From IMG/VR virus record IMGVR_UViG_3300049215_000481, positions 1 through 64,000 of that record: 64,000 nucleotides of DNA. One strand, written 5' to 3'. This stretch comes from a virus. This document shows, in pieces, positions 6,909-55,378 of the stretch (within the stretch, counting starts at the first letter, position 1; each line of letters opens with the position of its first letter). The notes beneath the pieces are model-generated. The model ran no database searches. It was not told the origin of the DNA and saw only the letters and a list, made by a program, of their open reading frames with translations. The position numbers and the translations under genes were made by a program.

Positions 6909-8102
6909 ATGGCCAAGGCCACCAAGAAGAAGCTGGCATGGGGTGAGGGCTCCATCAGGCAGCGTGGTAACAGGTTCCAGGTCCGCTGGCGAGAGGGCGG
7001 CACGATGCGCTCGGCGTCCGGCTTCGCCTCCAGGTTCGAGGCCCACGAGGAGCTGGAGCGCATCCACGCCCGCCTGAAGCTCGGGCAGCCTGGCGTCGAG
7101 CCCAAGGCGCCGCCGAAGCCCGCGTCGCGCGAGTTCGCCGACCTGCTCGACGAGTGGATCGACTACCGCGTGAAGCACGACAAACGCATGGCGCTGGAGG
7201 AGAGGTCTCGTTGGGCTCTTCACCTGGCCGTGCCACTGGCGACGCAGACCGTGGACACGGTGACATCGAAATGGGTGAGGAACTTGGCAGTGCAGCTCGT
7301 GAAGCCCGAGGTGGGAGACAAGGCGCCCAACGGGAAGAGGAAGGAGCCCATCTCGGGGCCCACGGCCCAGCGCGTGCTCACGCTGCTCTCGTCGTTCTAC
7401 ACGTGGGCAGTCGACGAGGGCATCGCGACCGACAACCCAGCGCGCGCAGCTCTCCGCCACAAGGACGTGAAGAAGCTGCTCGCTTCGAAGCACGACGGGA
7501 AGATGCAGCCCTACCTGAAGAGCTGGGAGCTGGTGACTGCGTTGTACAACGCACTCGCCCCGCCCTACTCGATCGCCTACCTCATCGGTGCGCGCGCAGG
7601 CCTGCGTCCCGGAGAGGTGGTCGCGCTGCAGTGGTCGGACGTCGACTTCGCCGCCGGCACGCTGCTCGTCGAGCGTCAGGTGCGGTCCGGCAAGCTGGGC
7701 CCGACCAAGGGCGGCAGGGCTCGCACGGTGCCGCTCTCGCCGGCTCTCGCCGAGGTCCTGAAGAAGTGGAAGCCGGCCAAGGCAAGGTCCGGGGACTTGG
7801 TGTGCCCGCCGGCCGTCCGCATGAGGAAGAACGGCAAGCCTGGCGCGCGCTACGGCATGTACCTCGGGCCGAAGAGATTCACCACGGCGCTCGCTGCCGC
7901 GTTCAAGGTGAGCGGCATCGCGCCGGGCACTCTGTACCAGTACGGCAGGCACACGTTCGGCTCGCTCACCGCGCTCGGCGGCGTCTCGACGTGGCGCTTG
8001 AAGGAGTGGATGGGGCACCAGGACATCAGCACGACGGAGCGCTACGTGTCGCTGGTCGGCCAGCAGCTCACGCCTGCGGAACTAGTGGCGCTCGGCGGCT
8101 AG
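6909..8102 (+). CDS. int: Tyrosine recombinase, phage integrase 1
   Basis: 397 residues. A basic N-terminal arm-binding region (MAKATKKKLAW, then SIRQRGNRFQVRW) is followed by a SAM-like core-binding domain and a catalytic domain. The box I arginine is in RAGLRPGEV near residue 232, the box II arginine in YQYGRHTF near 345, and the nucleophile in TTERYV near 379. The box II histidine is replaced by Gln, as also in integrase 2. The gene sits beside the tRNA-Thr attP core, so it is the likely enzyme for that site. Its stop overlaps the stop of the convergent gene. Confidence 0.93.
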   Translation: MAKATKKKLAWGEGSIRQRGNRFQVRWREGGTMRSASGFASRFEAHEELERIHARLKLGQPGVEPKAPPKPASREFADLLDEWIDYRVKHDKRMALEERSRWALHLAVPLATQTVDTVTSKWVRNLAVQLVKPEVGDKAPNGKRKEPISGPTAQRVLTLLSSFYTWAVDEGIATDNPARAALRHKDVKKLLASKHDGKMQPYLKSWELVTALYNALAPPYSIAYLIGARAGLRPGEVVALQWSDVDFAAGTLLVERQVRSGKLGPTKGGRARTVPLSPALAEVLKKWKPAKARSGDLVCPPAVRMRKNGKPGARYGMYLGPKRFTTALAAAFKVSGIAPGTLYQYGRHTFGSLTALGGVSTWRLKEWMGHQDISTTERYVSLVGQQLTPAELVALGG

Positions 8103-10643: not shown

Positions 10644-11744
10644 TCAGTAGCGCCGCCGAGTGCGGTACCAGTTTGAGAAGTCTCGCGGCTCCTCGCCGAA
10701 GACGTCGTTCTTGTAGAAGGCGATCGTCATGCCCAGCGACAGCAGGACGCCGAGGACGAGCAAGATGGTTGTCGCCGTGGACGAAGGCTCGATCGTGGAC
10801 TTCAGGTAGTCGAAGTCGTGCCAGGGCCGGCGCACCCAGTCGGCGCTCGCGTTCGTCTCGATGATGTTGAGCACCTTGTCGAGGTCGAAGGCAGGCAGGG
10901 CCTGGATCTGGTCGCGGATGTTGATGCCCATCGCGTCGCTCTTCGACCAGGTCATGACGTCGGCCCACCCGATGGCTGGCGGATTCGGCACGCCGATGAT
11001 GACGACGAGGTCGTTCTTCTTGCCGCCCAGCCAGTGCTCCCTCAGCGCCTCCTTGAACTCGCGGTCGCCTGACTTCGTGAGCACCACGATCACGTCAAGC
11101 TGCTTCTTCTTGCCCAAGCGCCCGTTCATCTCGGCCAGCAGGCGGTTCGCTTCAGCGCCACCGCCGATGAACTTGTCAGCGCGGTAGTAGTCGTAGACGC
11201 GCGGGTACTCGGGGAGCTTCCCCTTCCACTTCTCCTCCAGGCCCTGGCGCCTCAGCACGGAGTCTGGGTTGCCCTTGATGTAGTTGGTGAAGGAGTGCTC
11301 CACCGACGTGGGTTCACCGAGAACGATCTGGTTCCAGCGCTCGGGCGGCGACGAGTGCGGGCTGTTGCACCCGTCGTGGAAGATGCTCTCGTCGTTGGAC
11401 GATGTCGCGTCCCAGCTCAGGTCGTAGCTGTGCTCGTAGCACGTCATGCAGCAGTACGAGGAGCAGGTCGTGTTCCCCTTCGAGTCCGTGGTGCACGACT
11501 GGCACGTCATGCAGCAGTACGGGTGGCAGCAGCTGACCTCGTTCTGCGTCTTGGTCGCGACCACACCGTTCCAGTGCTCGACGTCGCTCGACCTGTTGCA
11601 GAGCGCGATGGCGTAGCCGACTCCAACAACCAGCAGGACGACGGCCTCCTGCAGCAGGAACTCCTTCAGCGTGATCTTGCCCTTGCCGAAGATGAGGCCC
11701 GCGAGGCCGATGAGGAGCGGAACGAGGAAGAGGAGGAAGAGCAT
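10644..11744 (-). CDS. Conserved phage membrane protein with Cys-rich and TPM-like domains (366 aa)
   Basis: Start at the ATG at 11744; the frame to 11918 reads the neighbour out of frame. Two N-terminal hydrophobic helices are followed by a cysteine-rich segment (CCHPYCCMTCQSC and CCMTCYEHSYD), a TPM-like alpha/beta region (KKKQLDVIVVLTKSG, KKNDLVVIIGV) and a C-terminal transmembrane helix. I recognise it as a conserved large-phage protein found with LemA-like partners. An AAGGAG lies 20 bases upstream, too far for a normal Shine-Dalgarno. Confidence 0.75.
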   Translation of the reverse strand: MLFLLFLVPLLIGLAGLIFGKGKITLKEFLLQEAVVLLVVGVGYAIALCNRSSDVEHWNGVVATKTQNEVSCCHPYCCMTCQSCTTDSKGNTTCSSYCCMTCYEHSYDLSWDATSSNDESIFHDGCNSPHSSPPERWNQIVLGEPTSVEHSFTNYIKGNPDSVLRRQGLEEKWKGKLPEYPRVYDYYRADKFIGGGAEANRLLAEMNGRLGKKKQLDVIVVLTKSGDREFKEALREHWLGGKKNDLVVIIGVPNPPAIGWADVMTWSKSDAMGINIRDQIQALPAFDLDKVLNIIETNASADWVRRPWHDFDYLKSTIEPSSTATTILLVLGVLLSLGMTIAFYKNDVFGEEPRDFSNWYRTRRRY

Positions 11745-12031
11745 GTTGATGTGGCGACCCGCGACTCCTTGAACGTGTCGATCTTCACGATGAACGCGGT
11801 GCCGTGCCCGAACACCCGTCTGAGGGTCTCCATGGCCGTGATGGCGGCGTCCACAGCGTCTTGGGCTGTTACGGTGAAGGCCACGGAGTCTTGACCGGTG
11901 GCGGTCACCTCCTCGCACCCACCTTCATGCAGTCTTCTGCCCACCAGGTAAGAGTTAACGTGCTGGATGTGAAGCGAGACTCTGAAGTCCTCTGTCATCA
12001 GCTCGCGGTCGATGGTTTTTGTTGCACCCAC
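11666..12031 (-). CDS. Unknown protein (121 aa) overlapping the next gene
   Basis: GTG start at 12031 with AAGGAG 8-9 bases upstream. The first ~95 residues look like a normal small alpha/beta protein. The last ~25 (Ser/Arg-rich) come from reading the following gene in another frame, so the true product may be shorter or the end frameshifted. Confidence 0.55.
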   Translation of the reverse strand: MGATKTIDRELMTEDFRVSLHIQHVNSYLVGRRLHEGGCEEVTATGQDSVAFTVTAQDAVDAAITAMETLRRVFGHGTAFIVKIDTFKESRVATSTCSSSSSSFRSSSASRASSSARARSR

Positions 12032-17172: not shown

Positions 17173-17298
17173 ATGCAGCTCAAGACCGTCGTCACGAAGA
17201 CCAGCACCGAGAACTCCTCGGCCGATCTCGAACCCCGCGGGTACGCCATCGTCGCCGCGGGCCAGGGCAGGCGCGGATTCGCTATCGGCTCTACATGA
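17173..17298 (+). CDS. Small unknown protein (41 aa)
   Basis: ATG at 17173 with a good CGGAGG site. The last codons coincide with the next TTCGCTATC element and its TGA overlaps the next ATG. No homology recognised. Confidence 0.45.
   Translation: MQLKTVVTKTSTENSSADLEPRGYAIVAAGQGRRGFAIGST
17278..17286 (+). promoter_or_regulatory. CGCTAT element inside the 3' end of the 41-aa frame
   Basis: TTCGCTATC, 8 bases before the ATG at 17295. Confidence 0.55.
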
Positions 17299-18243: not shown

Positions 18244-18615
18244 ATGAACACCGTCAAGACACTCGAACGCGCCACGCGGCTCTCTCGCCGTATCAACCAC
18301 AACAAGGGCCAGATGTACCGCGGCGGTACGCCGTCGAGGCCCCAGTCCTGCTGCGCAATCGGGCTCCTTCACCTCGCCAGCTCCGGCAAGGCCGACGGGC
18401 CGTTGACCGGGAACCTGATGAAGCCCGACGTGCGCGAGGCAGTTGCGCTCGCGAAGGTCGTCGCGTTCGAGGACGAGAACTACTACTACGAGCCCTCCCT
18501 CTACCGCTGGAACGACCGACCGAGGACGGAGAAGAAGGACGTCGTCCAGGTCATCGACGCGGCCTACGTCCTGGCTCTGCAGGAGCAGGGCATCGAGCCC
18601 GAGGACGTCCTCTAG
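18244..18615 (+). CDS. DUF6197-like protein, copy 1 (123 aa)
   Basis: ATG at 18244 with AGGAGG. Pattern: N-terminal helix (TRLSRRINHNKGQMY), SCCAIGLLHLAS, then WNDRPRTEKKDVVQVIDAAY. The combination of a Cys core and a WND(x)P motif followed by a helix matches the DUF6197-like family common in phages. A paralogue lies at 20827. Function unknown. Confidence 0.7.
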   Translation: MNTVKTLERATRLSRRINHNKGQMYRGGTPSRPQSCCAIGLLHLASSGKADGPLTGNLMKPDVREAVALAKVVAFEDENYYYEPSLYRWNDRPRTEKKDVVQVIDAAYVLALQEQGIEPEDVL

Positions 18616-19874: not shown

Positions 19875-20156
19875 ATGAACAAGAAAGCTGTCGCTGGCTT
19901 CTTCCTGGCCCTGACCCTCGTCGTCACTACGGTCTGCTGCCTGAACGACCCCGTGTCGACGCAGCCGACCAACAACGCCCACGTGCCCGTGTCGCTGCTC
20001 TTCGAGCACGACGGGTGTAAGGTGTTTCGGTTCACCGACGGCCAGTACGCGCGCTACTTCGCGCTCGGCACCTGCGGCGACGCCTCGGTCTCGCACGTCG
20101 AGAGCTGCGGCAAGAACTGCTCGCGCCCGGTCGAAGTGCCGTCGGTGAACAAGTGA
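19875..20156 (+). CDS. Phage lipoprotein, DUF4884-like (93 aa)
   Basis: A basic-hydrophobic signal peptide ends in a lipobox-like TTVC around residue 21. The mature part has FEHDGCKVFRFTDGQYARYF and a Cys-rich tail (SCGKNCSRP), matching the DUF4884-like small phage lipoproteins. It should be anchored in a host membrane; superinfection exclusion or surface masking is possible but not shown. Leaderless-type start; the stop overlaps the next GTG. Confidence 0.7.
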   Translation: MNKKAVAGFFLALTLVVTTVCCLNDPVSTQPTNNAHVPVSLLFEHDGCKVFRFTDGQYARYFALGTCGDASVSHVESCGKNCSRPVEVPSVNK

Positions 20157-20809
20157 AGACCATCTACCTCGCCAACCCGTACGGCTTCTCGCCGACCCAG
20201 CGGGCCGCGCTCCTCCCGCCCATCATCGGCGCGCTGGAGAAGATGGGCTTCGAGGTGTGGGAGCCCTTCTCTCGCTGCTCGTCCGCCGACTTCACGCGGC
20301 CCGAGTGGGTTCGCGAGGTTGGCCAGCAGTGCCTCAGCGACGTGCGGAACGCGGACGCCATCTTCGCCATTGTGAACGGCTGTCCGCCCGACGAGGGCGT
20401 GATGTTCGAGCTGGGCTACGCCGTCGCGCTCGGGAAGCCCTTCTTCCTCTTCCGGGACGACTTCCGGAAGTGCACCGACAGCAACGAGCTGCCTCTCAAC
20501 CTCATGGCGTTCGTCGGCCTGCAGAACCACGAGGACTGGCGAGCGCGGTACTTCACCTCGCTCAACGACCTCAACGACAAGCGGAAGCAGCTCTACGCCT
20601 TCGCGCCCCGACAGAGGCCCGAGCCGGCCGCCGGCCAGTGGTGGCGATTCCCGGGCGAGCGCCCGTACCGGCTCACGCGCAGGTACCACGACGACCTCGA
20701 CTGGTGCTGCGAGCACGAGCCGGGCGCCGACGACGGCCTGATGTACGACTCCGACTTCCAGGACCCGCGCGTCATCTACTGCGGCGACGGCGAAACGCCC
20801 AGCGAGTGA
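20153..20809 (+). CDS. Nucleoside 2-deoxyribosyltransferase-like protein (218 aa)
   Basis: GTG start at 20153 coupled to the lipoprotein stop. Residues 4-95 carry the family signature: IYLANPYGF, ADAIFAIVNG, and DEGVMFELGYAVALGKPFF with the expected catalytic glutamate near residue 86. Family members cleave or exchange the N-glycosidic bond of deoxynucleosides or their monophosphates. The C-terminal ~100 residues are unassigned. It lies among other nucleotide/ADP-ribose genes. Confidence 0.85.
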   Translation: MKTIYLANPYGFSPTQRAALLPPIIGALEKMGFEVWEPFSRCSSADFTRPEWVREVGQQCLSDVRNADAIFAIVNGCPPDEGVMFELGYAVALGKPFFLFRDDFRKCTDSNELPLNLMAFVGLQNHEDWRARYFTSLNDLNDKRKQLYAFAPRQRPEPAAGQWWRFPGERPYRLTRRYHDDLDWCCEHEPGADDGLMYDSDFQDPRVIYCGDGETPSE

Positions 20810-20818
20810 TTCGCTATC
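20810..20818 (+). promoter_or_regulatory. CGCTAT element
   Basis: TTCGCTATC overlapping the preceding stop, 8 bases before the ATG at 20827. Confidence 0.6.
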
Positions 20819-20826
20819 AGACCACC

Positions 20827-21207
20827 ATGAGCACTCAAGTCGGATACGCACTGAGGCGCGCGGCGCAGATCGCAGAGCGCCTCGACCACTGCAAGGGTCT
20901 GATGTTCGTCCGAGACCGCGACAAGCGACCGGTCTCCTGCTGCACCATCGGAGCCGTCCAGCTCGCTTGCTTCGACCTCGATCTGGATGCCTCGGTGTTC
21001 AAACGTGCGCTCCAGCACCTCTACCTGATGAAGCCGGAGTTCAACGGCGAGATCGGCATCTGGAACGACAAGCCAGAGACCAGGAAGGACGACGTCGTCG
21101 CGCTCCTCCGGCAGGCGGCCGACGACCTCGATCCGCCGGTGACGCAGGCGTCGCGCGAGACGGCCGCGATGGTCGCGCAGCTCACCCGCAAGTGGCCGGT
21201 GAAGTGA
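20827..21207 (+). CDS. DUF6197-like protein, copy 2 (126 aa)
   Basis: Same layout as the 18244 protein: RRAAQIAERLDHCKG, VSCCTIGAVQLA, then WNDKPETRKDDVVALLRQAA. Leaderless-type start. The stop shares one base with the next ATG. Confidence 0.7.
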   Translation: MSTQVGYALRRAAQIAERLDHCKGLMFVRDRDKRPVSCCTIGAVQLACFDLDLDASVFKRALQHLYLMKPEFNGEIGIWNDKPETRKDDVVALLRQAADDLDPPVTQASRETAAMVAQLTRKWPVK

Positions 21208-21413
21208 TGCTCGCCGTCTACGTCGTCGTGGGCTTCCTCGTGTTCGGCATCGCGGCGCTGCTGTGGATGCTCTTCATCAACTCCGTCGGCGGGGACCTGA
21301 ACATCGCGTTCGCGCCCTGGATGCTCTTCTGCGTCGTCTGCTGGGGGATCGCGTGGGTCGCGAAGCAGCCGTTCCGCGCGATTCGCTATCTGGCCTCCAG
21401 GAGTAACCGATGA
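21207..21413 (+). CDS. Small two-helix membrane protein (68 aa)
   Basis: TGATG-coupled to copy 2. Two hydrophobic helices separated by a short loop, basic C-terminus inside. The next gene's TTCGCTATC element lies within its last codons. Confidence 0.65.
   Translation: MLAVYVVVGFLVFGIAALLWMLFINSVGGDLNIAFAPWMLFCVVCWGIAWVAKQPFRAIRYLASRSNR
21382..21390 (+). promoter_or_regulatory. CGCTAT element inside the 3' end of the membrane gene
   Basis: TTCGCTATC, 19 bases before the ATG at 21410, with CAGGAG between. Confidence 0.55.
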
Positions 21414-21958
21414 ACGTCAAGGCCCTGATCGCTCAGCGCGACGAAGGCATTCTCCACCAGTTCCTGTTCTTCTGGGGCCACCACGGCAAGAAGGACGGCG
21501 CCGTCGGCAAGGAGTGCCTCTCGCAGTGGTACCCCGCCCCGTTCCAGTTCGCGGGTGAGACGTACCCGACGGCCGAGCACTTCATGATGGTCTGGAAGGC
21601 TCGCACGTTCGGCGACGAGGCGACGGCGAAGAGGGTCTTCGCAGACCCGAGCCCGGAGACCGCGAAGTTCTGCGGGCGCGCCGTCCAGGGCTTCAACGAC
21701 GAGAAGTGGAACCAGTGCAAGTTCCAGATCGTCGTCACCGGCAGTTTCGCCAAGTTCAGCAAGAACCCCGCGCTGCGCGAGTTCCTCCTCAGCACCGGCG
21801 ACAAGGTGCTCGTCGAGGGGAGTCCGCACGACAGAATCTGGGGCATCGGCATGAGAGGCGACCTAAACCCGGATTCATTCGACCCGCGCAAGTGGCGCGG
21901 CGAGAACCTGCTCGGGTTCGCGCTGATGGAAGCGCGCCGGATGATCCGCGCGCAGTAA
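21410..21958 (+). CDS. NADAR-domain protein (YbiA-like, 182 aa)
   Basis: Full-length NADAR/DUF1768 fold: FLFFWGHHG, WYPAPFQF, TYPTAEHFMMVWKA, and VLVEGSPHDRIWGIGM near the C-terminus. NADAR enzymes are N-glycosidases acting on ADP-ribose-type or riboflavin-precursor substrates, and some remove ADP-ribose from guanine in nucleic acids. Beside NAMPT-like and PRPP-synthetase-like genes, a role in NAD+/ADP-ribose handling or counter-defence is attractive. Confidence 0.88.
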   Translation: MNVKALIAQRDEGILHQFLFFWGHHGKKDGAVGKECLSQWYPAPFQFAGETYPTAEHFMMVWKARTFGDEATAKRVFADPSPETAKFCGRAVQGFNDEKWNQCKFQIVVTGSFAKFSKNPALREFLLSTGDKVLVEGSPHDRIWGIGMRGDLNPDSFDPRKWRGENLLGFALMEARRMIRAQ

Positions 21959-22090
21959 CAGTCTTCGGTCCCAGTCGAGGCACAGGACCCGCGGGTAGCT
22001 CCCGCCTCAGGGTTCGATTCCCTCCGTGGTTTGGACAGAGCCGGTTCGAGTCCGGCACTTCGACGTTGGCGGCACGGCGCCGGGACCACT
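21959..22090 (+). other. Non-coding stretch with two tRNA T-arm-like hairpins
   Basis: Contains a perfect GCGGG/CCCGC hairpin, AGGG-TTCGATT-CCCT and GCCGG-TTCGAGT-CCGGC, both with tRNA T-loop sequences. No complete acceptor stem can be paired, so these may be tRNA remnants or tRNA-like RNA. Confidence 0.3.
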
Positions 22091-22099
22091 TTCGCTATT
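22091..22099 (+). promoter_or_regulatory. CGCTAT element
   Basis: TTCGCTATT, 8 bases before the ATG at 22108. Confidence 0.55.
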
Positions 22100-22107
22100 A
22101 GGACCAC

Positions 22108-22353
22108 ATGAAGAAGCTCCCAAAGCTCACCGAGGACCTGCTGAACGAACCGATCCACAACCTCGGCACCGTCTCGAAGTCCGTGAAGCTCACGTGGCAC
22201 ATGGACGGAGGCGTGGAGCCGATCACCGGCAAGCCTCACCAGCACCTCGCAGCGTGCGTGCTCCAGAACATGAACCTCTGGACGCGCGAAGGCGGCTACG
22301 AGGTCGCCCTGTCACTCAGCCTCGACGGCTGCGACGTCAACGAGCTGCCGTGA
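22108..22353 (+). CDS. Unknown protein (81 aa)
   Basis: Leaderless-type start; stop overlaps the next GTG. No motif recognised. Confidence 0.65.
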   Translation: MKKLPKLTEDLLNEPIHNLGTVSKSVKLTWHMDGGVEPITGKPHQHLAACVLQNMNLWTREGGYEVALSLSLDGCDVNELP

Positions 22354-22565
22354 CGATCGCCCGCGCCTTCGTAGTGGCCTGCGTCTCCCTCGCGGTCCTC
22401 GTGCTCGCCCTGTCGGACGACAACGTCGTGTCGACCGAGGCGTGCTACCAGGCCATCCACGAGGTCGAGGAGGGCTGCAAGAAGGAGCTGCGCGCCTGCG
22501 ACGAGCGCGCCTACCAGAACTACAACCGCGGCTGGAGCAACGCCGCGATGAACACCTGCCCATGA
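22350..22565 (+). CDS. Small exported or anchored Cys-containing protein (71 aa)
   Basis: GTG start at 22350 coupled by GTGA. The first ~22 residues form a signal or anchor helix; the rest carries several cysteines (EACYQ, EGCKK, RACDE). Probably periplasmic. The stop overlaps the next ATG. Confidence 0.6.
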   Translation: MTIARAFVVACVSLAVLVLALSDDNVVSTEACYQAIHEVEEGCKKELRACDERAYQNYNRGWSNAAMNTCP

Positions 22566-23005
22566 GCGACACACCTCTACACGGACACACCTTCCTGGGT
22601 CCGAATGGCACCTGCATCTGCTGCGGCGATCCGGGCCCTGAGCAGGGAGCGTGTATCCCGCAGGTGCTCATGGCCATCGGCGAGCCACCTCTTCGAAAAG
22701 AAGAGCTGATCGAGATGCGGCGTGAGTGGAAGCCGCCCGTCGTCGGCGACACGCACCCTTTCCCGTGGCGCACGAAGCGCCACCGAAGCAACGACCGCTT
22801 TCAGAACGTCGTGTTCGTCATCCTCGACCGGCGCGACCGGTTCGTGGCTGAGAGCGAGTCCCAGCATGTCGCCGAGGCGATCGTCAACACGATGAACGCA
22901 GCGGCAGCGAAGCAGGACCAGGTCGTCGAGCTGCAGCCGGGCGTCTACACCGACCCCAGCGTGAAGAGCGCCTTCGCCGACCTGCCGCCCAAGGACAAGA
23001 AGTAG
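22562..23005 (+). CDS. Unknown protein with N-terminal CICCG (147 aa)
   Basis: ATGA-coupled. CICCGDPGPEQGAC near residue 18 may bind zinc; the rest is unassigned. Confidence 0.65.
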   Translation: MSDTPLHGHTFLGPNGTCICCGDPGPEQGACIPQVLMAIGEPPLRKEELIEMRREWKPPVVGDTHPFPWRTKRHRSNDRFQNVVFVILDRRDRFVAESESQHVAEAIVNTMNAAAAKQDQVVELQPGVYTDPSVKSAFADLPPKDKK

Positions 23006-23023
23006 CCGGCCCGCGTTCGCTGA

Positions 23024-23032
23024 TTCGCTATC
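23024..23032 (+). promoter_or_regulatory. CGCTAT element
   Basis: TTCGCTATC, 8 bases before the ATG at 23041. Confidence 0.6.
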
Positions 23033-23040
23033 TGCCCATC

Positions 23041-23598
23041 ATGGACAACATCCAGCACCTCACCAGCGCAGCGCTCAGCCTCGCCCTCAAGCTCCTCCAG
23101 GCGAAGGACCGCATCGCCGACCTCGTTCGTCAGAACGAGATCCTGACCAAGCAGCGCGACCGCGCCAACAAGCGCACGGCCGACCTCGACGCCAACTACA
23201 TGGAGAGCCTCAAGAAGCTGCAGAAGCAGCTCGAACAGGCTGTCGATGAGGCGTTCGACGACGGCAAGAGGGAAGGCCGCATCGACGCCAGCACGGACCG
23301 CATGAACCGCGCCCCCAAGAGCATCGCGCCGGAGGTCACTCCGTTCGGGATCATCTACCCGAACAAGCTCCTCAGCTCGATCGCCGGTGCCACCAACGTC
23401 ACCTGGACGAACGAGCCGTACGGCACGACCCGCGAGGTCATCGTGGCCGCCGTCGAGCACGCGAAGTGGCTCGTGAAGAGCGAGGACGCGCAGAAGGACT
23501 TCAACACTGCGTTCGAGGAAGACGCTGCGTTCGCCGCCCGCGCGGTCGACTGGTTCCTCACGCGCTTCAGCGCCGCGGTCAAGCCCGCCAAGGAATGA
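23041..23598 (+). CDS. Coiled-coil phage protein (185 aa)
   Basis: Residues ~10-80 are a charged heptad-rich helix (LKLLQAKDRIADLVRQNEIL). The C-terminal part is mixed. Leaderless-type start; the stop overlaps the next ATG. Function unknown. Confidence 0.65.
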   Translation: MDNIQHLTSAALSLALKLLQAKDRIADLVRQNEILTKQRDRANKRTADLDANYMESLKKLQKQLEQAVDEAFDDGKREGRIDASTDRMNRAPKSIAPEVTPFGIIYPNKLLSSIAGATNVTWTNEPYGTTREVIVAAVEHAKWLVKSEDAQKDFNTAFEEDAAFAARAVDWFLTRFSAAVKPAKE

Positions 23599-24275
23599 CT
23601 CCCGTCCTGTTTCTCGACTTCGACGGCGTCCTCAACGGCCAGTCGAACAAGGTTGAGCCGCCTCTAGTTGCGCTGCTCAACCAGATCGTCGAGCAGTCCA
23701 GGTGTGACGTCGTCGTGTCGTCCGCCTGGCGCATCGACGGGGTCGAGCGCCTGCAGGTGGTGTTGAGCAACGCCGGCTACACCGGCACTCTGCGCGATGT
23801 CACCCCGAGTGGCGGCTGCACCGAGCACTTTGACCGCGGGTGGATCTGCAGCGAGGCGCACCGCGGGTTCGAGATCCTGGAGTGGCTCCGCACCAACTAC
23901 CCCGACGGGGTCTTCCCTCCGATCGTCTGTCTCGACGACTCGTCTGACCTGCACCCATTCCTCGACCGGCACGTGCACACACGCTCGTACGTCGGACTGG
24001 AGGACCGGCACGTCGCCGAGGCGCTCCAGATCTTGTCCGAGCCGATGGACCCGTTCTGCACGGGCTGCTGGGCGCAGATCGACCCCGATACCTGCGGGTG
24101 TGGCGACTCCCTGAAGTACCACGGCAGTTGTTTGACCGCCGGCCACTCGTTCGTCCCAATGGGCTGCAACTGCCTCCGCCCGAAGAGGCCCGACTGCGCC
24201 GAGTGCGAGAACAAGCGCTTCATCCAGCGCATGTGGGACAAGACGCCCTGCTACTCGTGCGTGAAACGCTATTAG
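23595..24275 (+). CDS. HAD-like hydrolase, RNA-repair (SAK) type, with Cys-rich tail (226 aa)
   Basis: Begins with the HAD nucleophile motif FLDFDGVLNG, followed by VVVSSAWR (motif II Ser) and CLDDSSD (motif IV acids). This compact layout matches HAD domains linked with Swiss-army-knife RNA repair proteins, and related HADs of phages. The last ~70 residues add many Cys pairs (CTGC, CGCG, CNC, CAEC, CYSC), probably zinc sites. A role in phosphate removal from RNA ends is inferred. Confidence 0.75.
   Translation: MTPVLFLDFDGVLNGQSNKVEPPLVALLNQIVEQSRCDVVVSSAWRIDGVERLQVVLSNAGYTGTLRDVTPSGGCTEHFDRGWICSEAHRGFEILEWLRTNYPDGVFPPIVCLDDSSDLHPFLDRHVHTRSYVGLEDRHVAEALQILSEPMDPFCTGCWAQIDPDTCGCGDSLKYHGSCLTAGHSFVPMGCNCLRPKRPDCAECENKRFIQRMWDKTPCYSCVKRY
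24265..24273 (+). promoter_or_regulatory. CGCTAT element (variant)
   Basis: AACGCTATT at the end of the HAD gene, 10 bases before the ATG at 24284. Confidence 0.45.
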
Positions 24276-24283
24276 GCCTTCAA

Positions 24284-24667
24284 ATGTCATCCACGAACAC
24301 CAAGAAGGCTCCCATCTACAACTACCGCTCCGGCGGTTGGGTCGGATTCGACCTCGACGGCACGCTGGCCGTATACGACGAGTGGCGTGGCGCCACGCAC
24401 ATCGGCGAGCCCATCATGCCGAACGTAAAGCGGGCTCAGCGCTACCTGCAGGACGGCATCGAGGTCCGCATTTTCACGGCGCGCGCCGACGGTGGCCTCG
24501 ACCTCGAAGAGGTCACCAACGCGATCCAGGACTGGACCGAGAAGCACATCGGCCGACGCCTCGCGGTGACCAACCGGAAGGACTTCGGGATGATCCGCCT
24601 GTACGACGACCGCGCCATCCAGGTCGAGTTCAACACCGGCCGGCGCGTCGACGGCCGCGAAGACTAG
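24284..24667 (+). CDS. HAD-superfamily phosphatase (127 aa)
   Basis: FDLDGTLAVYD near residue 23 is the HAD motif I; VRIFTARA is motif II and the DDRAIQVE segment supplies the acidic motif. It belongs to the small class of phage/bacterial HADs acting on nucleotides or polynucleotide 3' phosphates. Substrate unknown. Confidence 0.75.
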   Translation: MSSTNTKKAPIYNYRSGGWVGFDLDGTLAVYDEWRGATHIGEPIMPNVKRAQRYLQDGIEVRIFTARADGGLDLEEVTNAIQDWTEKHIGRRLAVTNRKDFGMIRLYDDRAIQVEFNTGRRVDGRED

Positions 24668-24668
24668 A

Positions 24669-24677
24669 TTCGCTATG
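24669..24677 (+). promoter_or_regulatory. CGCTAT element
   Basis: TTCGCTATG overlapping the TAG stop, 8 bases before the ATG at 24686. Confidence 0.55.
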
Positions 24678-24685
24678 CGCCCACC

Positions 24686-25357
24686 ATGGGCGCGCGAAGA
24701 CTCCGCAACCTCATCCACCACGCCGCCAGCGCGCACCTCTGCCTGGTGCCGCTGTCGCGTGAGGGCTTCTACGCCGTCGTCGACAAGATCGACGCGCCGT
24801 ACGTCGCGCAGTACAGGTGGGCGGTCAAGCAAGACCACAAGGCGTTATACGCCAAGACGGTCATCGACGGACACCACGTCCTCCTGCACCGCTTCATCTG
24901 GGCGCTGCACGCACGGCCGGAAGCGCGTCTCATCGACCACAAGGACGGCGACGGGCTCAACAACCAGTTGAGCAACCTGCGCGCGGCGTCCACCTTTCAG
25001 AACACGGCCAACCGAGGCGACAGTGCGCTCTCGTCGAGTGGCATCCGCGGCGTCGCACTCCGCAAGGGGTTGTGGCGAGTGCGCCTGAAGCAGAACGGCA
25101 AGGAAGTGCACGTCGGCTACTTCCGCCGCAAACGCGACGCGGTCCGCGCGCAACCGAGCAGCACGCGCTCTGCACGGCGAGTTCGCAAGAACACATTCGC
25201 TATGGGCCCCACATGTCGAACAAACAGCTCATGGTCGCCGACGTCAACGGCGTGGTCCACGACATCGCGATCACCGAGTACGCCGACGGCGCTCCTCTCA
25301 TCAAGCAGCGCATCGACCTCAACGAAGCACGCATCCTGTTCCGCCCGAACTCGATGA
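24686..25357 (+). CDS. HNH homing endonuclease with AP2-like domain, C-terminal frame disrupted
   Basis: Residues ~60-100 hold the HNH core HHVLLHRFIWALH, IDHKDGDGLNNQLSNLR, with AASTFQN linking to an AP2-like strand region (GIRGVALRKGLWRVRL, VHVGYFRRKRDAV). At about 25150 the expected ending (RAARALHGEFART) lies in another frame; the annotated frame runs into the next gene until 25357. A short deletion is likely, so the true protein should end near 25200. Confidence 0.65.
   Translation: MGARRLRNLIHHAASAHLCLVPLSREGFYAVVDKIDAPYVAQYRWAVKQDHKALYAKTVIDGHHVLLHRFIWALHARPEARLIDHKDGDGLNNQLSNLRAASTFQNTANRGDSALSSSGIRGVALRKGLWRVRLKQNGKEVHVGYFRRKRDAVRAQPSSTRSARRVRKNTFAMGPTCRTNSSWSPTSTAWSTTSRSPSTPTALLSSSSASTSTKHASCSARTR
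25196..25204 (+). promoter_or_regulatory. CGCTAT element
   Basis: TTCGCTATG, 8 bases before the ATG at 25213. Confidence 0.55.
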
Positions 25358-26049
25358 AGGAGTTCGTCGCGGCGATGTTCTGGTGCGACGCAATGGACGA
25401 GCGGTACGACGGGTACCCTCATCTCGTCCTGCCCTTCGTGCCCGGCGCGCGCCAGGACCGTCTCAACGACGAGGGCGACGCGCTCTTCACGCTCAAGAGC
25501 GTCGCCAAGATGATCAACGAGCGGTCGTTCGCGTCCGTCACGGTTGTCGACCCCCACTCGTACGTCACGCCGGCACTCATCGACCGCTGCATCGTCATCC
25601 CGGCCGTCGACTGCATCCAGTCGTACACGCGTAGGATCGCCGGCGTCGTGTCGCCCGACGCGGGCGCCGAGAAGCGCGCCAGCTCCATCGCGAAGTTCTT
25701 CCACGTGCCGCTCTTCCACGCCTGGAAGAGCCGCGACATCGAGACGGGCGCGATCACCGGCTTCGGCGTCGAGGAGTCGATCAGCGAGCTGCGCGGCAAG
25801 CGCGTCCTCGTGGCGGACGACATCTGCGACGGCGGCGGCACCTTCGTCGGCCTCGCCGACCAGCTCGACGCCCACGGCGTCGCGGCCGACCTCTACGTCA
25901 CTCACGGTCTCTTCACGCAGGGAACGGCGCGGCTCAAGAGCCGCTTCCGCCACGTGTGGACGACCGACTCCGTCCTCAACAACGCCACGGGCGTCGACGT
26001 CATGCGCGTCTGCGAGCGCCTGCTCTTCCAACCCTCTCTGAAAGGCTGA
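25213..26049 (+). CDS. Ribose-phosphate pyrophosphokinase-like protein (Prs/Adps type, 278 aa)
   Basis: Two tandem PRTase-like domains as in PRPP synthetases: LVLPFVPGARQDR (ATP/flexible region), TVVDPHS, and the PRPP loop VLVADDICDGGGTF near residue 200. In cells Prs makes PRPP from ribose 5-phosphate. In some phages the homologue paired with a NAMPT-like enzyme converts ADP-ribose to ADPR-pyrophosphate for NAD+ rebuilding (NARP1). The NAMPT-like gene follows 7 bases downstream, so that pairing is present here. Confidence 0.88.
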   Translation: MSNKQLMVADVNGVVHDIAITEYADGAPLIKQRIDLNEARILFRPNSMKEFVAAMFWCDAMDERYDGYPHLVLPFVPGARQDRLNDEGDALFTLKSVAKMINERSFASVTVVDPHSYVTPALIDRCIVIPAVDCIQSYTRRIAGVVSPDAGAEKRASSIAKFFHVPLFHAWKSRDIETGAITGFGVEESISELRGKRVLVADDICDGGGTFVGLADQLDAHGVAADLYVTHGLFTQGTARLKSRFRHVWTTDSVLNNATGVDVMRVCERLLFQPSLKG

Positions 26050-26056
26050 TCCGCAC

Positions 26057-27541
26057 ATGAACCTCTCTCCTCTGACCCGCAGCGCACTCCAGGCCGTCAC
26101 GCGCATCGACGGCTACAAGCTGGACCACCGGCGGCAGTACCCGAAGAACACCACCCGCGTCTACTCCAACTGGACCCCGCGCGGCACCCGCGTCGAGGGC
26201 CAGAAGAAGGTCGTCGCCCTCGGCACCCCGTTCCTGGTCCAGAAGTACCTGGTCGAGGACTTCGAGCCGTTCTTCGCGGCCAACATCGACGAGGTGTGCG
26301 CGGCCTACGAGGCCCGCGTCAACGGCTACCTCGGCCCGAACTCGATCGGCTCGGACCACATCCGCGCGCTGCACGCCCTCGGCTACCTGCCGCTGGAGAT
26401 CCGCGCGCTGCCCGAGGGCACGCACGTCCCGCTGCGCATCCCGATGGTGACGGTCGAGAACACGCACGACGACTTCGCGTGGCTCGTGAACTACTTCGAG
26501 ACGCTCATTTCGAGCGTGCTCTGGATGCCGTCGACGTCGGCCACCTCCGCGCTCCGCGTGCGTGAGGTCCTGGAGGACGGCGCGCGTCTCACCGGCTCAC
26601 CGCTCGGGTTCGTCGACTGGCAGGGGCACGACTTCTCGTTCCGCGGCATGCTGCTGCCCGAGGGCGCGGCGCTGTCGGGCGTCGGCCACCTGCTCTTCTT
26701 CACGGGCACCGACACGCTGCCCGCGATCGACCTCATCGAGCAGTACTACGGCGTCCCCGAGGGCTACCTCATCGCCGGCTCCGTCGCCGCGACCGAGCAC
26801 TCGGTCATGTGCGCTGGCGGCAAGGAGGACGAGCGCGCGACGTTCGAGCGCCTGCTGGAGCTGTACCCAGAGGGGATCGTCTCGGTCGTCTCGGACACGT
26901 GGGACCTCTGGAAGGTCCTCACCGAGATCCTGCCGTCGCTCAAGGACCGCATCATGGCCCGCAACGGCAAGCTCGTCATCCGCCCCGACTCGGGCAACCC
27001 CGCGGACATCGTCTGTGGTGACCCGAACGCGCCCGAGGGTTCGCCCGCTCGCAAGGGCGTCATTGAGCTGCTCTGGGAGACGTTCGGCGGCACAAAGACG
27101 GACCTCGGCTTCAAGGTGCTCGACTCACACATCGGCTGCATCTACGGCGACGCCATCACCCGCGACCGCGCCAAGGAGATCATCGAGCGCCTCGCGGCCA
27201 AGGGCTTCGCGTCCTGCAACATGGTGTTCGGCGTCGGCTCGTTCACCTACCAGTTCGTCACGCGCGACACCTACTCCTTCGCGATGAAGGCGACGTGGGC
27301 CATGGTCGACGGCGAGGGCCGCGACCTGTTCAAGTCGCCCATCACTGACAAGGGCGAGAAGAAGAGCGCCAAGGGTCGCCTCGCGGTCCTGCGCGACGAG
27401 AACGGCGAGCTGTACCTCGTCGAAGGCGCGACGCCCGAGCAGGAGGCCGCGTCGCTCCTCCGCGTCGTTTGGCGCAACGGCCAGTTCCTCGTGCGCGAGA
27501 CGTTCGACGTCATCCGCGCCCGCGCGCAGTCCGAGCGCTGA
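26057..27541 (+). CDS. Nicotinamide phosphoribosyltransferase-like protein (NAMPT/Namat type, 494 aa)
   Basis: Full-length NAMPT fold. DGYKLDHRRQYP opens the protein, DWQGHDFSFRGM and GVGHLLFFTGTDTLPA line the substrate channel, ATEHSVMCAGG carries the conserved catalytic His, and VIRPDSGNPAD the phosphate-binding Arg/Asp. It would join nicotinamide to PRPP (giving NMN) or, in the NARP1 pathway, to ADPR-pyrophosphate (giving NAD+ directly). No NMN adenylyltransferase is visible here, which slightly favours the second. Confidence 0.92.
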   Translation: MNLSPLTRSALQAVTRIDGYKLDHRRQYPKNTTRVYSNWTPRGTRVEGQKKVVALGTPFLVQKYLVEDFEPFFAANIDEVCAAYEARVNGYLGPNSIGSDHIRALHALGYLPLEIRALPEGTHVPLRIPMVTVENTHDDFAWLVNYFETLISSVLWMPSTSATSALRVREVLEDGARLTGSPLGFVDWQGHDFSFRGMLLPEGAALSGVGHLLFFTGTDTLPAIDLIEQYYGVPEGYLIAGSVAATEHSVMCAGGKEDERATFERLLELYPEGIVSVVSDTWDLWKVLTEILPSLKDRIMARNGKLVIRPDSGNPADIVCGDPNAPEGSPARKGVIELLWETFGGTKTDLGFKVLDSHIGCIYGDAITRDRAKEIIERLAAKGFASCNMVFGVGSFTYQFVTRDTYSFAMKATWAMVDGEGRDLFKSPITDKGEKKSAKGRLAVLRDENGELYLVEGATPEQEAASLLRVVWRNGQFLVRETFDVIRARAQSER

Positions 27542-27547
27542 GCGGCC

Positions 27548-28012
27548 ATGCACCGGCCACTCGACCAAGAGCCCGAGATCGTCGTCAACGGCGTGCGCCT
27601 CTCGCGCGCGCAGGCGAAGGCGGTCCGGGTGGCGGTGACGGACTTCAACGCCCAGATGACGACCCCACACGCTGCCGAGTGTCTGGGGTCGCCGCTGGCG
27701 TCCGCGTACCTGGACCGTACGAACGAAGTCATCGGCCTCATGCTCGCGCCTCGGGTGGAGACGTCGATCCCACACCCGAAGATCTCGGTCTTCTTCAACG
27801 AGATGGGTGCCTCGTTCATCGTGCAGCAGGACATCACGCTCACGAACGAGCAGATGCTGGACCTCAGCGACCACGTCAGCCGCTTCAAGGCGCCGCCGCA
27901 CCTCGTGGACAAGGTGGCGCTGCAGGAGGCTGTCGACGCGTGGGGGCGGCGCCTCGTCGCGAACAACCACATCGAGCTGGACTACATCACGGGCAAGTGG
28001 GTGCAGAGATGA
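27548..28012 (+). CDS. Unknown protein (154 aa)
   Basis: ATG at 27548, 6 bases after the NAMPT-like stop. No domain recognised; the stop overlaps the next ATG. Probably co-transcribed with the NAD+ genes. Confidence 0.65.
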   Translation: MHRPLDQEPEIVVNGVRLSRAQAKAVRVAVTDFNAQMTTPHAAECLGSPLASAYLDRTNEVIGLMLAPRVETSIPHPKISVFFNEMGASFIVQQDITLTNEQMLDLSDHVSRFKAPPHLVDKVALQEAVDAWGRRLVANNHIELDYITGKWVQR

Positions 28013-28574: not shown

Positions 28575-28581
28575 CCGGACT

Positions 28582-29256: not shown

Positions 29257-30444
29257 CTAGTTCAGCGGCGCGGCGACGTCGTTCGCGGGAGCAACCAGGT
29301 TGACCTGGACGCGTCCGCGGTCGACGTCGTTGAAGGAGTCGGGGCGGAGGTGGGCGTAGCGCTCCGTGATCGTGACGCTGGAGTGGCCCATCATCTCGCA
29401 GAGCTTCTCCAGCGAGCCGCCGGCCAGGACCCACTGGGAGGCGAACGTGTGGCGCGTCGCCTGGTACCAGGTCATCTCGTCGAGCTGCAGGCGCTCCAGC
29501 ACCTCTTCGAGCGCGTCGGCAATGACGTGGCGATTGAGAAAGGGCGTGGTCTGGCGCGAGGAGATGGACGGGCACACGAGCCCATGGCCGCCGCAGCGAG
29601 CGCGGTACGCGAGCAGGAGAGGCGCCAGGCTGTCGAAGAGCGGCACCACCCGGCTCTCGCCGTCCTTCAGGGGCGCGAAGCCGTCGTCGGTCCGCTCGCG
29701 GCCAGTCGTGCGCTCACATTGGACCTGGACGTGGATCTCCTTCCGCTCGAACGAGATGTCGGACCAGCGGAGCCCGAGGACCTCTCCCGTGCGAAGCCCG
29801 GCGAGGGCCCCGAGAGCGTAGGCGACCGCGATGACCTCGTGCTGCTCCAGCAGCGCCCGGTAGACGCGCTCGACGTCCTGGGGCGTGCGGATGAAGGGGA
29901 CCTTCCGCGGGTCGTGCTCCGAGCGCAGGTACTTCTCGCGCGTGGCCTTCGACAGGAGCTTCACCGGGTTCAGACGAGCCACGCCGTCCTCGACCAGGTC
30001 CGAGTACAGGGACGACAGCAAGCTGATGCAGAGGTTCGCCGTGGACTTCGACAACCCCTTCGCGAGCAGGCCCTTGATGAGCTGCTTCAGCTCTGGAACG
30101 CCGACCTGGTTCGGGCTGTAGGAGCCGACCTCGGACGCCAGATGCAGGTTCCAGCGGTTCCTGTCGTCGTAGGCTGACGCGTTCGTCCGCAAGGCCAGCC
30201 ACGCCTCGGCGTGGGCCTTGAGCGGCCGGCTGGGCTCGCGCTCGGTGACGACCAGGCCGACCTCGCCGCGGATGACGTTCGCCGTGACCTGCGCCAGCGT
30301 CTGCTTGGCCAGCTCCTCCGACGGGAAGCTCTTCGTCTTCCTGGTGCCGTCCAGCTCCGTCCACTGGATGATGTGGCGGTTCCCGCGGGCGTAGTACGTG
30401 CCGGCGCCATGGGTCCTGCGGTGGGTCTTTTTCTTCCGAGCCAT
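29257..30444 (-). CDS. Tyrosine recombinase, integrase 2
   Basis: Start at the ATG at 30444 (MARKKKTHRRTHG), because a consensus sigma70 promoter lies directly before it; the frame opens at 30525. 395 residues: basic N-terminal strand region, SAM-like core-binding domain, then a catalytic domain with LAGLRTGEVLGLRWSD, WYQATRHTFASQW and ITERYAHL. As in integrase 1, Gln replaces the usual box II His. No tRNA-like core is evident beside it, so its target is unknown. Confidence 0.9.
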   Translation of the reverse strand: MARKKKTHRRTHGAGTYYARGNRHIIQWTELDGTRKTKSFPSEELAKQTLAQVTANVIRGEVGLVVTEREPSRPLKAHAEAWLALRTNASAYDDRNRWNLHLASEVGSYSPNQVGVPELKQLIKGLLAKGLSKSTANLCISLLSSLYSDLVEDGVARLNPVKLLSKATREKYLRSEHDPRKVPFIRTPQDVERVYRALLEQHEVIAVAYALGALAGLRTGEVLGLRWSDISFERKEIHVQVQCERTTGRERTDDGFAPLKDGESRVVPLFDSLAPLLLAYRARCGGHGLVCPSISSRQTTPFLNRHVIADALEEVLERLQLDEMTWYQATRHTFASQWVLAGGSLEKLCEMMGHSSVTITERYAHLRPDSFNDVDRGRVQVNLVAPANDVAAPLN

Positions 30445-31471: not shown

Positions 31472-33997
31472 ATGGCGACCCAAGTGCCGGGCCCTGTGAC
31501 CCCGGGTGCGTTGTTCGATCTGGCCCGCGCGAATGAACTCGCGCCTGGGCAGGAGACGGACAAGACCTGGTACCGCGAGCCCACCATCGCGGGTGCCAAG
31601 TGGAACCAGCTCTTCCCGTACCAGCTCATCGTCGTCGATCGCCAGGCCGACGGCACGTACGTGCGGCGCCGCGAGAAGGGCTGGACCTACACACTGCCGA
31701 TGTCGCCCGAGTCGCTCTCGATCGAGATGCCGTTCGCGATCACGACGTCGGTCACGATGGGCGGCTACGTCGAGCACCACAACGGCACGCCCATCCGCAT
31801 GCTGCAGCTCTCGGGCACCTTCGGCGTGTTCTTCGGCCGCGGTGAGGCCAAGGTGCCCCCGCAGTTGACGTTCGCCGAGTCCATCCTGGGCGGCACCATC
31901 TCCGCCTTCCAGAGCACTCTGCAGGCCGCGCGAGACATCCCAAGCGCGTACACGGGCAAGGAGTACAACACCAACTCCGCCGACGCGAACTCGTTCGACT
32001 CGGGCCAGGCCAACGAGAAGGCCACCGGCTACTTCCAGGCTCGCCTGCTGCAGGCGTTCTTCGACTCCTACGCCGAGTTCAAGAAGACGAAGGCCGGGCG
32101 CAACTCGCGCCTGGCATTCGCCATCTGGAAGCAGGAGGCCGTCTACCTCGTGCAGCCCATCGACTACCGGGCCACGCAGTCGGCTGACAGTCCGCTGGAG
32201 TACCGCTACTCGCTCACCCTGAAGGCGACCAAGCGCGTGAAGCTCACCCAGGGCGCGATGGACATCGCCGTCCCGTACGTGCCCGTGCAGCGCGACCCGG
32301 GCAAGCTGGCCAAGCTCCTCGCGACGGTCACGCAGGCTCGGCAGGTCCTCCAGAACGCCCGCAAGACGATCATCGCCATCGGCGGCGACGTCGAGCACTC
32401 GCTATTCGAGCCGATGCGCGAGCTGTCCATGTTCGCCAAGGACGCGCTGGCGGTCCCGCTCTCGATCGCGGACCTCGGCGACAGCCTCGTCCAGTCGACG
32501 CGCACCGCAGTGATGGACCTGGCCCAGACTCGCAACGACATCACCCACTTCCCGCAGAACATCCGCGGCGCCTACGGGTCGTACACGAAGGACCTCAAGG
32601 ACTCGTACGAGTCCATCCGCCAGTTCAACGCAGAGCGGAGTGACGACGACGGCAGGGACGACCCGACCCGCAGTGCGGACGCGGCGACGAGCAGCCGCAA
32701 CGCTCACCCGGCCAACAACCCGTTCCTGAACCCGTCTGACAACTTCTCGTTCTTCTCGACCATCAGCGTGGGTGACCTGCACCTGCCTCCCGCGACGATG
32801 ACGAAGATCGCGGCTGAGCGCGAGCGGGTCCGCAACCTGACCAGGGCCGACTTCGAGGCGCGCCGCAACGCCATCAGCGCCGTCACGGCGAACTTCGCCA
32901 ACGCCATCGGCCTCGGCTCCTCGACGTACAACGCCACGTACAACATCACGGCGCCGACCAACCAGGCTGTCACGCGCGCAACCGACGAGGACTTCGAGGC
33001 GCTCTTCGCGCTCAACGCCCTCATCATGGAGATGAACCGCCTCGTGGTCACGACTGACCGCGAGCCGCGCGCCCTCATCGACGCCATCGCGTCCGTCGCC
33101 GGCATGGCCTCTCGCTCGGGCATCGCCTTCCAGATGCCGCGCTCGAAGTACGCCGTGCCCTTCCCGTACGGCAGCACGCTGGAGATGCTCTCCACCCTGT
33201 ACCTGGGCACCCCGGACCGCTGGCACGAGATCGCGGCCCTCAACGGGCTTCAGGCTCCTTACGTCGACGAGCAGGGCTTCGAGCTGCCGCTGCTGACCAC
33301 CGGCGCCGGCAACACGCTCCTCGTCGAGGACGCGTCTCAGCTCTTCGTCGGTCAGCCCGTGTGGGTCGAGTCGATCGGGAAGCTCCGCAGTAAGCGCCGC
33401 GTGACGAAGATCGACCACCTGTCGGCCGACCAACACCTCATCACGGTCGACGGCCCCGCCGACCTCGACGGCTACTCGCCGCAGTCGTTGGCGAAGCTGA
33501 TCGCGTTCCTCCCGAACACGGTCAACTCCCAGATGCTCATCTACATCCCGAGCAGCATCGAGCCGAAGGACGGCGACTTCCAGACGAAGTCCATCCCGGG
33601 CGTCGACGAGTTCGACCGTCTCATCGCAGTGGGCGGCGTGGACCTCCTGCTCGACCAGAAGAACGACCTCATCATCACTCCGGACGGCGACGCGCGCTGG
33701 GCGGTCGGCCTCACGAACATCATCCAGAAGGTGCGCCTCGCACTCTCAGTGCGCCAGGGGACGCTCAACCGTCACCCGGAGTACGGCCTTCCGCTCGTCG
33801 TGGGCCAGAGTATCGCCGACACGGACGCGGTCGACATCGCGAAGGCGGTGCAGAGCATGGTCGCCGGTGACCCGACCTTCACCGGCGTGAGGGGCGCGAC
33901 GGTCAACATCACAGGTCCGGTGGCGCGTCTCGCGTTCGGCGTCGAGGTGTCCGGCGTCTCACAAGTCATCCCGGTGTCCATCGACGTGAAGCAGTAG
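31472..33997 (+). CDS. Baseplate protein with LysM-like and gp25-like regions (841 aa)
   Basis: The N-terminal ~270 residues resemble phage baseplate hub/wedge proteins (WTYTLPMSPESLSIEMPFAI, GGYVEHHNGTPIRMLQLSGT). A helical middle follows, then a LysM-like segment near 564-603 (YGSTLEMLSTLYLGTPDRWH) and a C-terminal gp25/W-like domain from ~745 (VRLALSVRQGTLNRHPEYGL). Such fusions occur in contractile-tailed phages. Leaderless-type start after CGCAATCTT. It precedes the baseplate-J-like gene, interrupted by an HNH gene. Confidence 0.8.
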   Translation: MATQVPGPVTPGALFDLARANELAPGQETDKTWYREPTIAGAKWNQLFPYQLIVVDRQADGTYVRRREKGWTYTLPMSPESLSIEMPFAITTSVTMGGYVEHHNGTPIRMLQLSGTFGVFFGRGEAKVPPQLTFAESILGGTISAFQSTLQAARDIPSAYTGKEYNTNSADANSFDSGQANEKATGYFQARLLQAFFDSYAEFKKTKAGRNSRLAFAIWKQEAVYLVQPIDYRATQSADSPLEYRYSLTLKATKRVKLTQGAMDIAVPYVPVQRDPGKLAKLLATVTQARQVLQNARKTIIAIGGDVEHSLFEPMRELSMFAKDALAVPLSIADLGDSLVQSTRTAVMDLAQTRNDITHFPQNIRGAYGSYTKDLKDSYESIRQFNAERSDDDGRDDPTRSADAATSSRNAHPANNPFLNPSDNFSFFSTISVGDLHLPPATMTKIAAERERVRNLTRADFEARRNAISAVTANFANAIGLGSSTYNATYNITAPTNQAVTRATDEDFEALFALNALIMEMNRLVVTTDREPRALIDAIASVAGMASRSGIAFQMPRSKYAVPFPYGSTLEMLSTLYLGTPDRWHEIAALNGLQAPYVDEQGFELPLLTTGAGNTLLVEDASQLFVGQPVWVESIGKLRSKRRVTKIDHLSADQHLITVDGPADLDGYSPQSLAKLIAFLPNTVNSQMLIYIPSSIEPKDGDFQTKSIPGVDEFDRLIAVGGVDLLLDQKNDLIITPDGDARWAVGLTNIIQKVRLALSVRQGTLNRHPEYGLPLVVGQSIADTDAVDIAKAVQSMVAGDPTFTGVRGATVNITGPVARLAFGVEVSGVSQVIPVSIDVKQ

Positions 33998-55088: not shown

Positions 55089-55378
55089 TGCTTCGCCGCG
55101 GTGAGGACGCCGATCTGGGCGCGCAGTTCGGCGTTTTCGCTCCTGAGCACAGCCAGCTCGATCTCGGCCTTCATCCGCAGCTCGTGCGGGGTGAGCCTGC
55201 CGGCCTTCACGATGGCGAGAGTGAAGCGCTCGCCGACGCGGTTCCTGAAGCCGTGCTCGATGTAGTTGACGATCTCGGGCCCGGGACGGAGCAGGCGCTT
55301 CTTCGCACCCCACCTCATCAGTCGGCAGCCGATGAGAGCCACGATGGCCCGCGGCAAGCTGAGCCTCTGCCCGATCAT
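55085..55378 (-). CDS. Helical basic protein (97 aa)
   Basis: The ATG at 55378 (ATGA overlap) is preferred to 55405. Basic N-terminus, heptad-like C-terminal helix (ELRMKAEIELAVLRSENAEL). Function unknown. Confidence 0.6.
   Translation of the reverse strand: MIGQRLSLPRAIVALIGCRLMRWGAKKRLLRPGPEIVNYIEHGFRNRVGERFTLAIVKAGRLTPHELRMKAEIELAVLRSENAELRAQIGVLTAAKQ

Follow-up and report, generated by a model that had tools for sequence, protein, structure and literature searches.

The gene pair described here is most closely related to NARP1, a phage system for rebuilding nicotinamide adenine dinucleotide (NAD+) that consists of an ADP-ribose (ADPR) pyrophosphate synthetase, Adps, and a nicotinamide ADP-ribose transferase, Namat. 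In Mycobacterium phage DyoEdafos the purified Adps (gp77) and Namat (gp79) make NAD+, and a RyR-domain glycosidase encoded between them, RyDEP (gp78), feeds ADPR to NARP1 (PMC13232231). A second NARP1 is that of SPbetaL1, represented by the Namat structures 9W5W and 9W5X (PMC12774641). The NrsAB genes of Vibrio phage ICP1 encode homologous proteins, and in Nezha-bearing cells NAD+ was higher after infection by phage with NrsAB (PMC11559045). NadV-type salvage, as found in Vibrio phage ValKK3, uses a Nampt of the same protein superfamily together with a nicotinamide mononucleotide (NMN) adenylyltransferase (NMNAT). We analyzed the first 64 kb (hereafter the window) of the 169,280-bp virus record IMGVR_UViG_3300049215_000481, which has a G+C content of 65%. 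The original prediction had placed adjacent Prs-like and NAMPT-like genes at 25213-27541 and read them as NARP1. Both open reading frames (ORFs) are indeed there, on the same strand and 7 nt apart, and we put the probability that they form a NARP1 (Adps plus Namat) counter-defense module at roughly 93%.

25213-26049, plus strand: Adps-type gene (ADP-ribose pyrophosphate synthetase), 278 amino acids (aa), from family matches, tree and fold
26057-27541, plus strand: Namat gene (nicotinamide ADP-ribose transferase), 494 aa, from structure matches, signature and tree

Comparison with described systems

The window pair and DyoEdafos NARP1 share the order Adps-Namat on one strand, Namat proteins that are 58% identical and carry the same signature, and a phage without a PF01467 NMNAT. 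They differ in that nothing lies between the genes in the window, where DyoEdafos has RyDEP, and in that the two Adps proteins are only about 30% identical. Similarity to SPbetaL1, an unrelated phage, is lower overall, but the nicotinamide, ribose and adenine contacts checked in its Namat are all either unchanged or conservatively substituted (Y396 to F). NrsAB has the same two-gene order, with a Namat identity of only 47%. ValKK3 is more distant: its Nampt is about 30% identical, lacks the selectivity-clamp signature described below and has no adjacent Adps, and the phage carries PF01467 nucleotidyltransferases.

The pairing of these genes is widely conserved. A Prs-like gene was present in the flank of the NAMPT-like gene in 72 of 80 viral (IMG/VR) relatives, far beyond chance; the flanks fetched spanned about 10 kb, and of the eight relatives without a Prs-like gene, most were short contigs or had short flanks. 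In Rhodococcus phage Weasels2 the annotation places an HNH gene between the two. Staphylococcus phage Maine has a hypothetical gene for 131 aa (11605-12000 of its locus) at the position of RyDEP in DyoEdafos. The PHROG family phrog_12872 (547 positions) is matched both by the window Adps (70-213) and by the C-terminal part of Namat, which suggests that some phages have fused Adps-Namat proteins.

Identification of Namat

General family models place the 494-aa protein among the nicotinate and nicotinamide phosphoribosyltransferases (Pfam NAPRTase, 4e-36, and NAMPT_N, 1.5e-5; PHROGs nicotinamide phosphoribosyl transferase, 4e-189). Its best PDB matches are the SPbetaL1 Namat structures, at 511 bits, against 229 bits for human Nampt and about 230 bits for Nampts, human or bacterial. 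A published test for Namat combines a helix signature, GSX(T/S)X(Q/N)X(N/V)TRD, also given as GSX-Phi-X-Phi-X-Phi-TRD with X aromatic, with a clamp-loop residue (Arg, Lys or Tyr type) stacked against the adenine of ADPR pyrophosphate (ADPR-PP) (PMC12774641). The window protein has GSFTYQFVTRD, an exact fit to this selectivity-clamp signature, and all 85 Namat-like proteins extracted have the form GS(F/Y)x(Y/F)(Q/E)xxTRD. The Nampts of phages ValKK3 and phiAS4 have GGGLLQ..(D/N)RD in its place. When residues of SPbetaL1 Namat were mapped onto the window protein, R40 corresponded to R45, S391 to S395, F392 to F396, Y396 to F400, T398 to T402, R399 to R403 and D400 to D404. The equivalents of Arg40, Ser391 and the aromatic residues are missing from four Nampts. 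Across 34 aligned relatives, conservation at the clamp position R45 is 90% or more. The catalytic residues D18, Y20, F193, R196, D219, R309 and D311 are intact, and the nicotinamide and ribose contacts are likewise retained.

In a tree of 28 proteins the window Namat grouped with the DyoEdafos and SPbetaL1 Namats, and the four Nampts split off with 100/100 support. PDB entry 9ke8 sat in the group labeled as validated Namats in this tree, and we do not count it as validated. It should be noted that generic annotation gives both Namat and Nampt the name nicotinate phosphoribosyltransferase; the published signature separates the two in metagenomic phages.

Identification of Adps

The 278-aa protein matches Pribosyltran in Pfam (1.4e-8) and ribose-phosphate pyrophosphokinase in PHROGs (3.6e-63). 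The Prs model TIGR01251 scores it at 92.6 bits, below the 113-bit cut-off, and the Prs N-terminal domain PF13793 has no match in the record. A confident AlphaFold model (pLDDT, the predicted local distance difference test, 94.8) has the PRPP-synthetase fold (PRPP, phosphoribosyl pyrophosphate), with Foldseek template modeling (TM) scores of 0.73-0.79 against PRPP synthetases. In the tree, the protein falls among phage Adps proteins (that of DyoEdafos and 18 others), with three Prs outside at 100/99, a result to be read with caution as some branches are long. The phosphate loop reads DDICDGGGTF, compared with DDMIDTGGT in Escherichia coli Prs, and nearly all phage Adps proteins examined have DD(I/L)CDGG(G/R/A)TF. 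The Thr of the Prs loop lies at the 5'-phosphate site in Prs; its loss would suit a substrate with AMP at the 5' end.

The NARP1 reading and ordinary nicotinamide salvage

As in the published relatives, a host NADase (a TIR, SIR2 or SEFIR effector) would split NAD+ into ADPR and nicotinamide. Adps would then use ATP to place pyrophosphate onto ADPR, giving ADPR-PP, and Namat would combine ADPR-PP with nicotinamide to give NAD+. In this way NAD+ would be rebuilt in two steps without an NMN adenylyltransferase, and phage replication could continue.

The principal alternative is ordinary nicotinamide salvage, in which Prs would supply PRPP, a NAMPT/NadV protein would make NMN and the host NMN adenylyltransferase would complete NAD+. 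Generic models do name the genes in this way (NCBIfam PRK09198, nicotinate phosphoribosyltransferase, 531 bits; the PHROG labels), and SPbetaL1 Namat retains activity with PRPP (PMC12774641). Against this, full support separates the two proteins from Prs and Nampt in the trees, the clamp signature and Arg45 are present, the Prs models fail as described above, and the record, unlike ValKK3, contains no NMNAT. The original prediction had seen no NMNAT gene, and this holds for the full record: a search with PF01467 (CTP_transf_like) gave 0 matches in 169,280 bp, and all 14 control genomes matched. Seven Adps/Namat phages also had 0 matches, and ValKK3, which has an ordinary NadV, had 2. NadV/NadM-type systems combine a Nampt that lacks the clamp with an NMNAT; here the clamp is present and no NMNAT was found. 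We therefore regard ordinary salvage as very improbable.

Several points weigh against the NARP1 assignment. Identity of the window Adps to the proven DyoEdafos Adps is low, as noted. The NMNAT-free result covers the record, whose ends are not proven complete, and phage phiAS4, which has an ordinary Nampt, also lacks a PF01467 match; the absence of NMNAT is therefore supporting and, alone, not discriminating. Because PRPP, too, is a substrate of the proven SPbetaL1 Namat, with about half the activity of human Nampt (PMC12774641), a dual role of the window Namat, using both ADPR-PP and PRPP, is possible. Finally, we infer both reactions and the counter-defense effect from published relatives. 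NARP1 is nonetheless strongly supported by clade placement, the signature, the clamp residues, similarity to a proven Namat and a record without NMNAT. The original prediction had proposed phylogenetic placement as a check and had named two outcomes as evidence to the contrary, proteins that cluster with ordinary Prs and NAMPT and, alternatively, an NMNAT gene elsewhere; Namat fell with Namats and Adps with phage Adps, and neither contrary observation was made, as far as sequence allows. The two-gene kit was already known, and knowledge of NARP1 itself is unchanged. What is added is a well-supported module from a high-GC contractile-tailed phage, in an accessory region without a near relative among GenBank phages.

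Promoter-like motifs

The 9-mer ATTCGCTAT occurs 42 times in the record against 0.18 expected. In 23 copies the gap to a start codon is exactly 9 nt, and other spacings (3-29 nt) occur at most twice each. Examples on the plus strand of the window are at 17277, 18816, 20809, 23023, 24668 and 25195. The consensus is gATTCGCTAT..G..C..CATG, in which TAT..G spans -12 to -7 from the ATG. This placement, like that of a -10 box, suggests a promoter for leaderless mRNAs, and the motif looks like a phage-wide promoter class. A Shine-Dalgarno sequence accompanies several copies of the motif whose gap is longer (18-24 nt). The motif positions also suggest corrected gene starts, for example at 19875. The copy closest to the module is:

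25195-25203, plus strand: promoter-like ATTCGCTAT, with a spacing of exactly 9 nt to the Adps start codon downstream

This spacing supports the Adps start at 25213. As the next variant copy on the plus strand is at 28581, Adps, Namat and the 154-aa gene that follows are probably on one transcript, with a predicted start at the 25195 motif.

A second motif, CGCAATCTT, has 23 copies against 0.8 expected and precedes start codons by 6 nt (or 9-18 nt), for example at window positions 31472, 34645, 49464 and 49920 and record positions 103539, 130817 and 159052. Some of the genes that it precedes are structural, such as one for a baseplate-like protein, and it is possibly a late-promoter class.

Neighboring genes

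Genes close to the module are as follows:

20153-20809, plus strand: nucleoside 2-deoxyribosyltransferase-like protein (PF05014, 5e-28)
21410-21958, plus strand: NADAR-domain protein of the YbiA/riboflavin type (PF08719, 7e-50)
24686-25357, plus strand: HNH endonuclease ORF (HNH_3, 5e-7), overlapping the Adps start
27548-28012, plus strand: 154-aa ORF, beginning after a 6-nt gap from Namat

The HNH ORF has its own ATTCGCTAT at 24668, 9 nt upstream, and is likely a homing-type insert outside the pathway. The original prediction had gathered the other three genes, along with more distant ones, into a wider NAD+/ADPR cluster. For NADAR and the deoxyribosyltransferase, the gene identities stand and the link to the theme does not, as neither is kept with NARP1 in relatives. 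Of the distant genes, the supposed phosphoribosyltransferase at 5706 reaches only 21.6 bits with Pribosyltran, short of the 26.3-bit cut-off, and the gene at 55375, described as SLOG-like, belongs to a different family, DUF7768 (PF24963).

The best model for the NADAR protein is the riboflavin-intermediate N-glycosidase TIGR02464 (156.5 bits, cut-off 73.7). In the alignment it has Glu in the LVE..D.IWGIGM block, as does E. coli YbiA. At the catalytic charged position, NADARs linked to DarT1 (BC4488) have Asp and those of the gp30.3 type have His; the window protein has neither. NADAR was found in 4 of 50 relative records searched whole, and 1 of 80 viral relatives had it no more than 10 kb from Namat; in the phages Listeria LMSP-25 and Staphylococcus Maine there was none in the fetched NARP1 flank (up to 12 kb). 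Conversely, 5 of 15 NADAR relatives had Namat or Adps matches within 10 kb, but these were distant Namat-family proteins (26-36% identity) from two groups of near-identical contigs. The deoxyribosyltransferase was near Namat in 0 of 80 viral relatives; a pattern scan of viral contigs found no relatives, and a partial match was seen in only 12 Enterococcus phages. The 154-aa gene, suggested earlier to be an undescribed member of the system, was also near Namat in 0 of 80. Its product had no Pfam, PHROG or NCBIfam match and no relative in INPHARED or IMG/VR, and a single-sequence AlphaFold model was poor (pLDDT 48). We therefore rejected it as a conserved NARP1 member.

A cluster in which NADAR would free ADPR from modified nucleic acid or signals for Adps, with help from the deoxyribosyltransferase and the 154-aa protein, would agree with the closeness of the genes on one strand, with phage NADARs reported near NAD+ salvage genes by Iyer et al. 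(PMC9503650) and with the feeding of NARP1 by RyDEP in DyoEdafos (PMC13232231), but we consider it highly unlikely given the counts above, the riboflavin-type best model, the distance of 3-5 kb with unrelated genes between (NADAR is 3.3 kb upstream), the separate ATTCGCTAT copy and Shine-Dalgarno sequence of NADAR at 21381, and the behavior of a tested E. coli phage NADAR, which cleaved ADP-ribosylated guanine in vitro and gave no protection from DarT1 (PMC11125620). The narrower idea that NADAR frees ADPR from a conjugate such as ADP-ribosylated guanine and that NARP1 recycles this ADPR into NAD+ is similarly unlikely; if true, the phage would both repair and refuel after an ADP-ribosylating defense. 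Such a link would not be wholly new, since Iyer et al. had already reported NADAR near salvage genes. Most simply, 20153-28012 would be a series of accessory genes unrelated to each other, except that two of them are NARP1.

No Macro domain was found in the record. The RyR domain also had no match there, a weak negative since no control genome matched either. The one Nudix domain (1.6e-20) is N-terminal in a 946-aa protein encoded in the structural region (record 114897-117737, plus strand), far from NARP1; this protein also has, near 680-720, a weak PI3/4-kinase-like stretch that falls just short of the cut-off.

Phage type and other features of the record

The record has genes for a baseplate wedge, portal, tail-sheath-like protein, GroEL, DnaB and DNA polymerase III alpha, and its source is therefore a large contractile-tailed phage. 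The first 24 kb had 0 megablast matches among 50,697 GenBank phage records. Two recombinase genes suggest a temperate history:

6909-8102, plus strand: tyrosine recombinase
29257-30444, minus strand: tyrosine recombinase

The accessory region with NARP1 is bracketed by these genes, and the accessory block also contains two DUF6197 (PF19698) paralogs, at 18244-18615 and 20827-21207. The first bases of the record match, over 304 bp and at 89%, a segment located 868 bp from the other end; this was rejected as a terminal repeat because it is not an exact direct repeat.

DNA polymerase III alpha is encoded by two genes split at an intein (record 70876-73089 and 73294-75756, minus strand). The N half has an intein N-terminal region just under the cut-off (TIGR01445) and the C half an intein C-terminal region above it (TIGR01443; VKIVAARSLGVQPVYDLSVEHGDHSFIHESGVIVHNC). 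Between the halves is a frame with CxxC motifs and an HNH-like look, and the arrangement resembles that of a split intein in a fractured gene.

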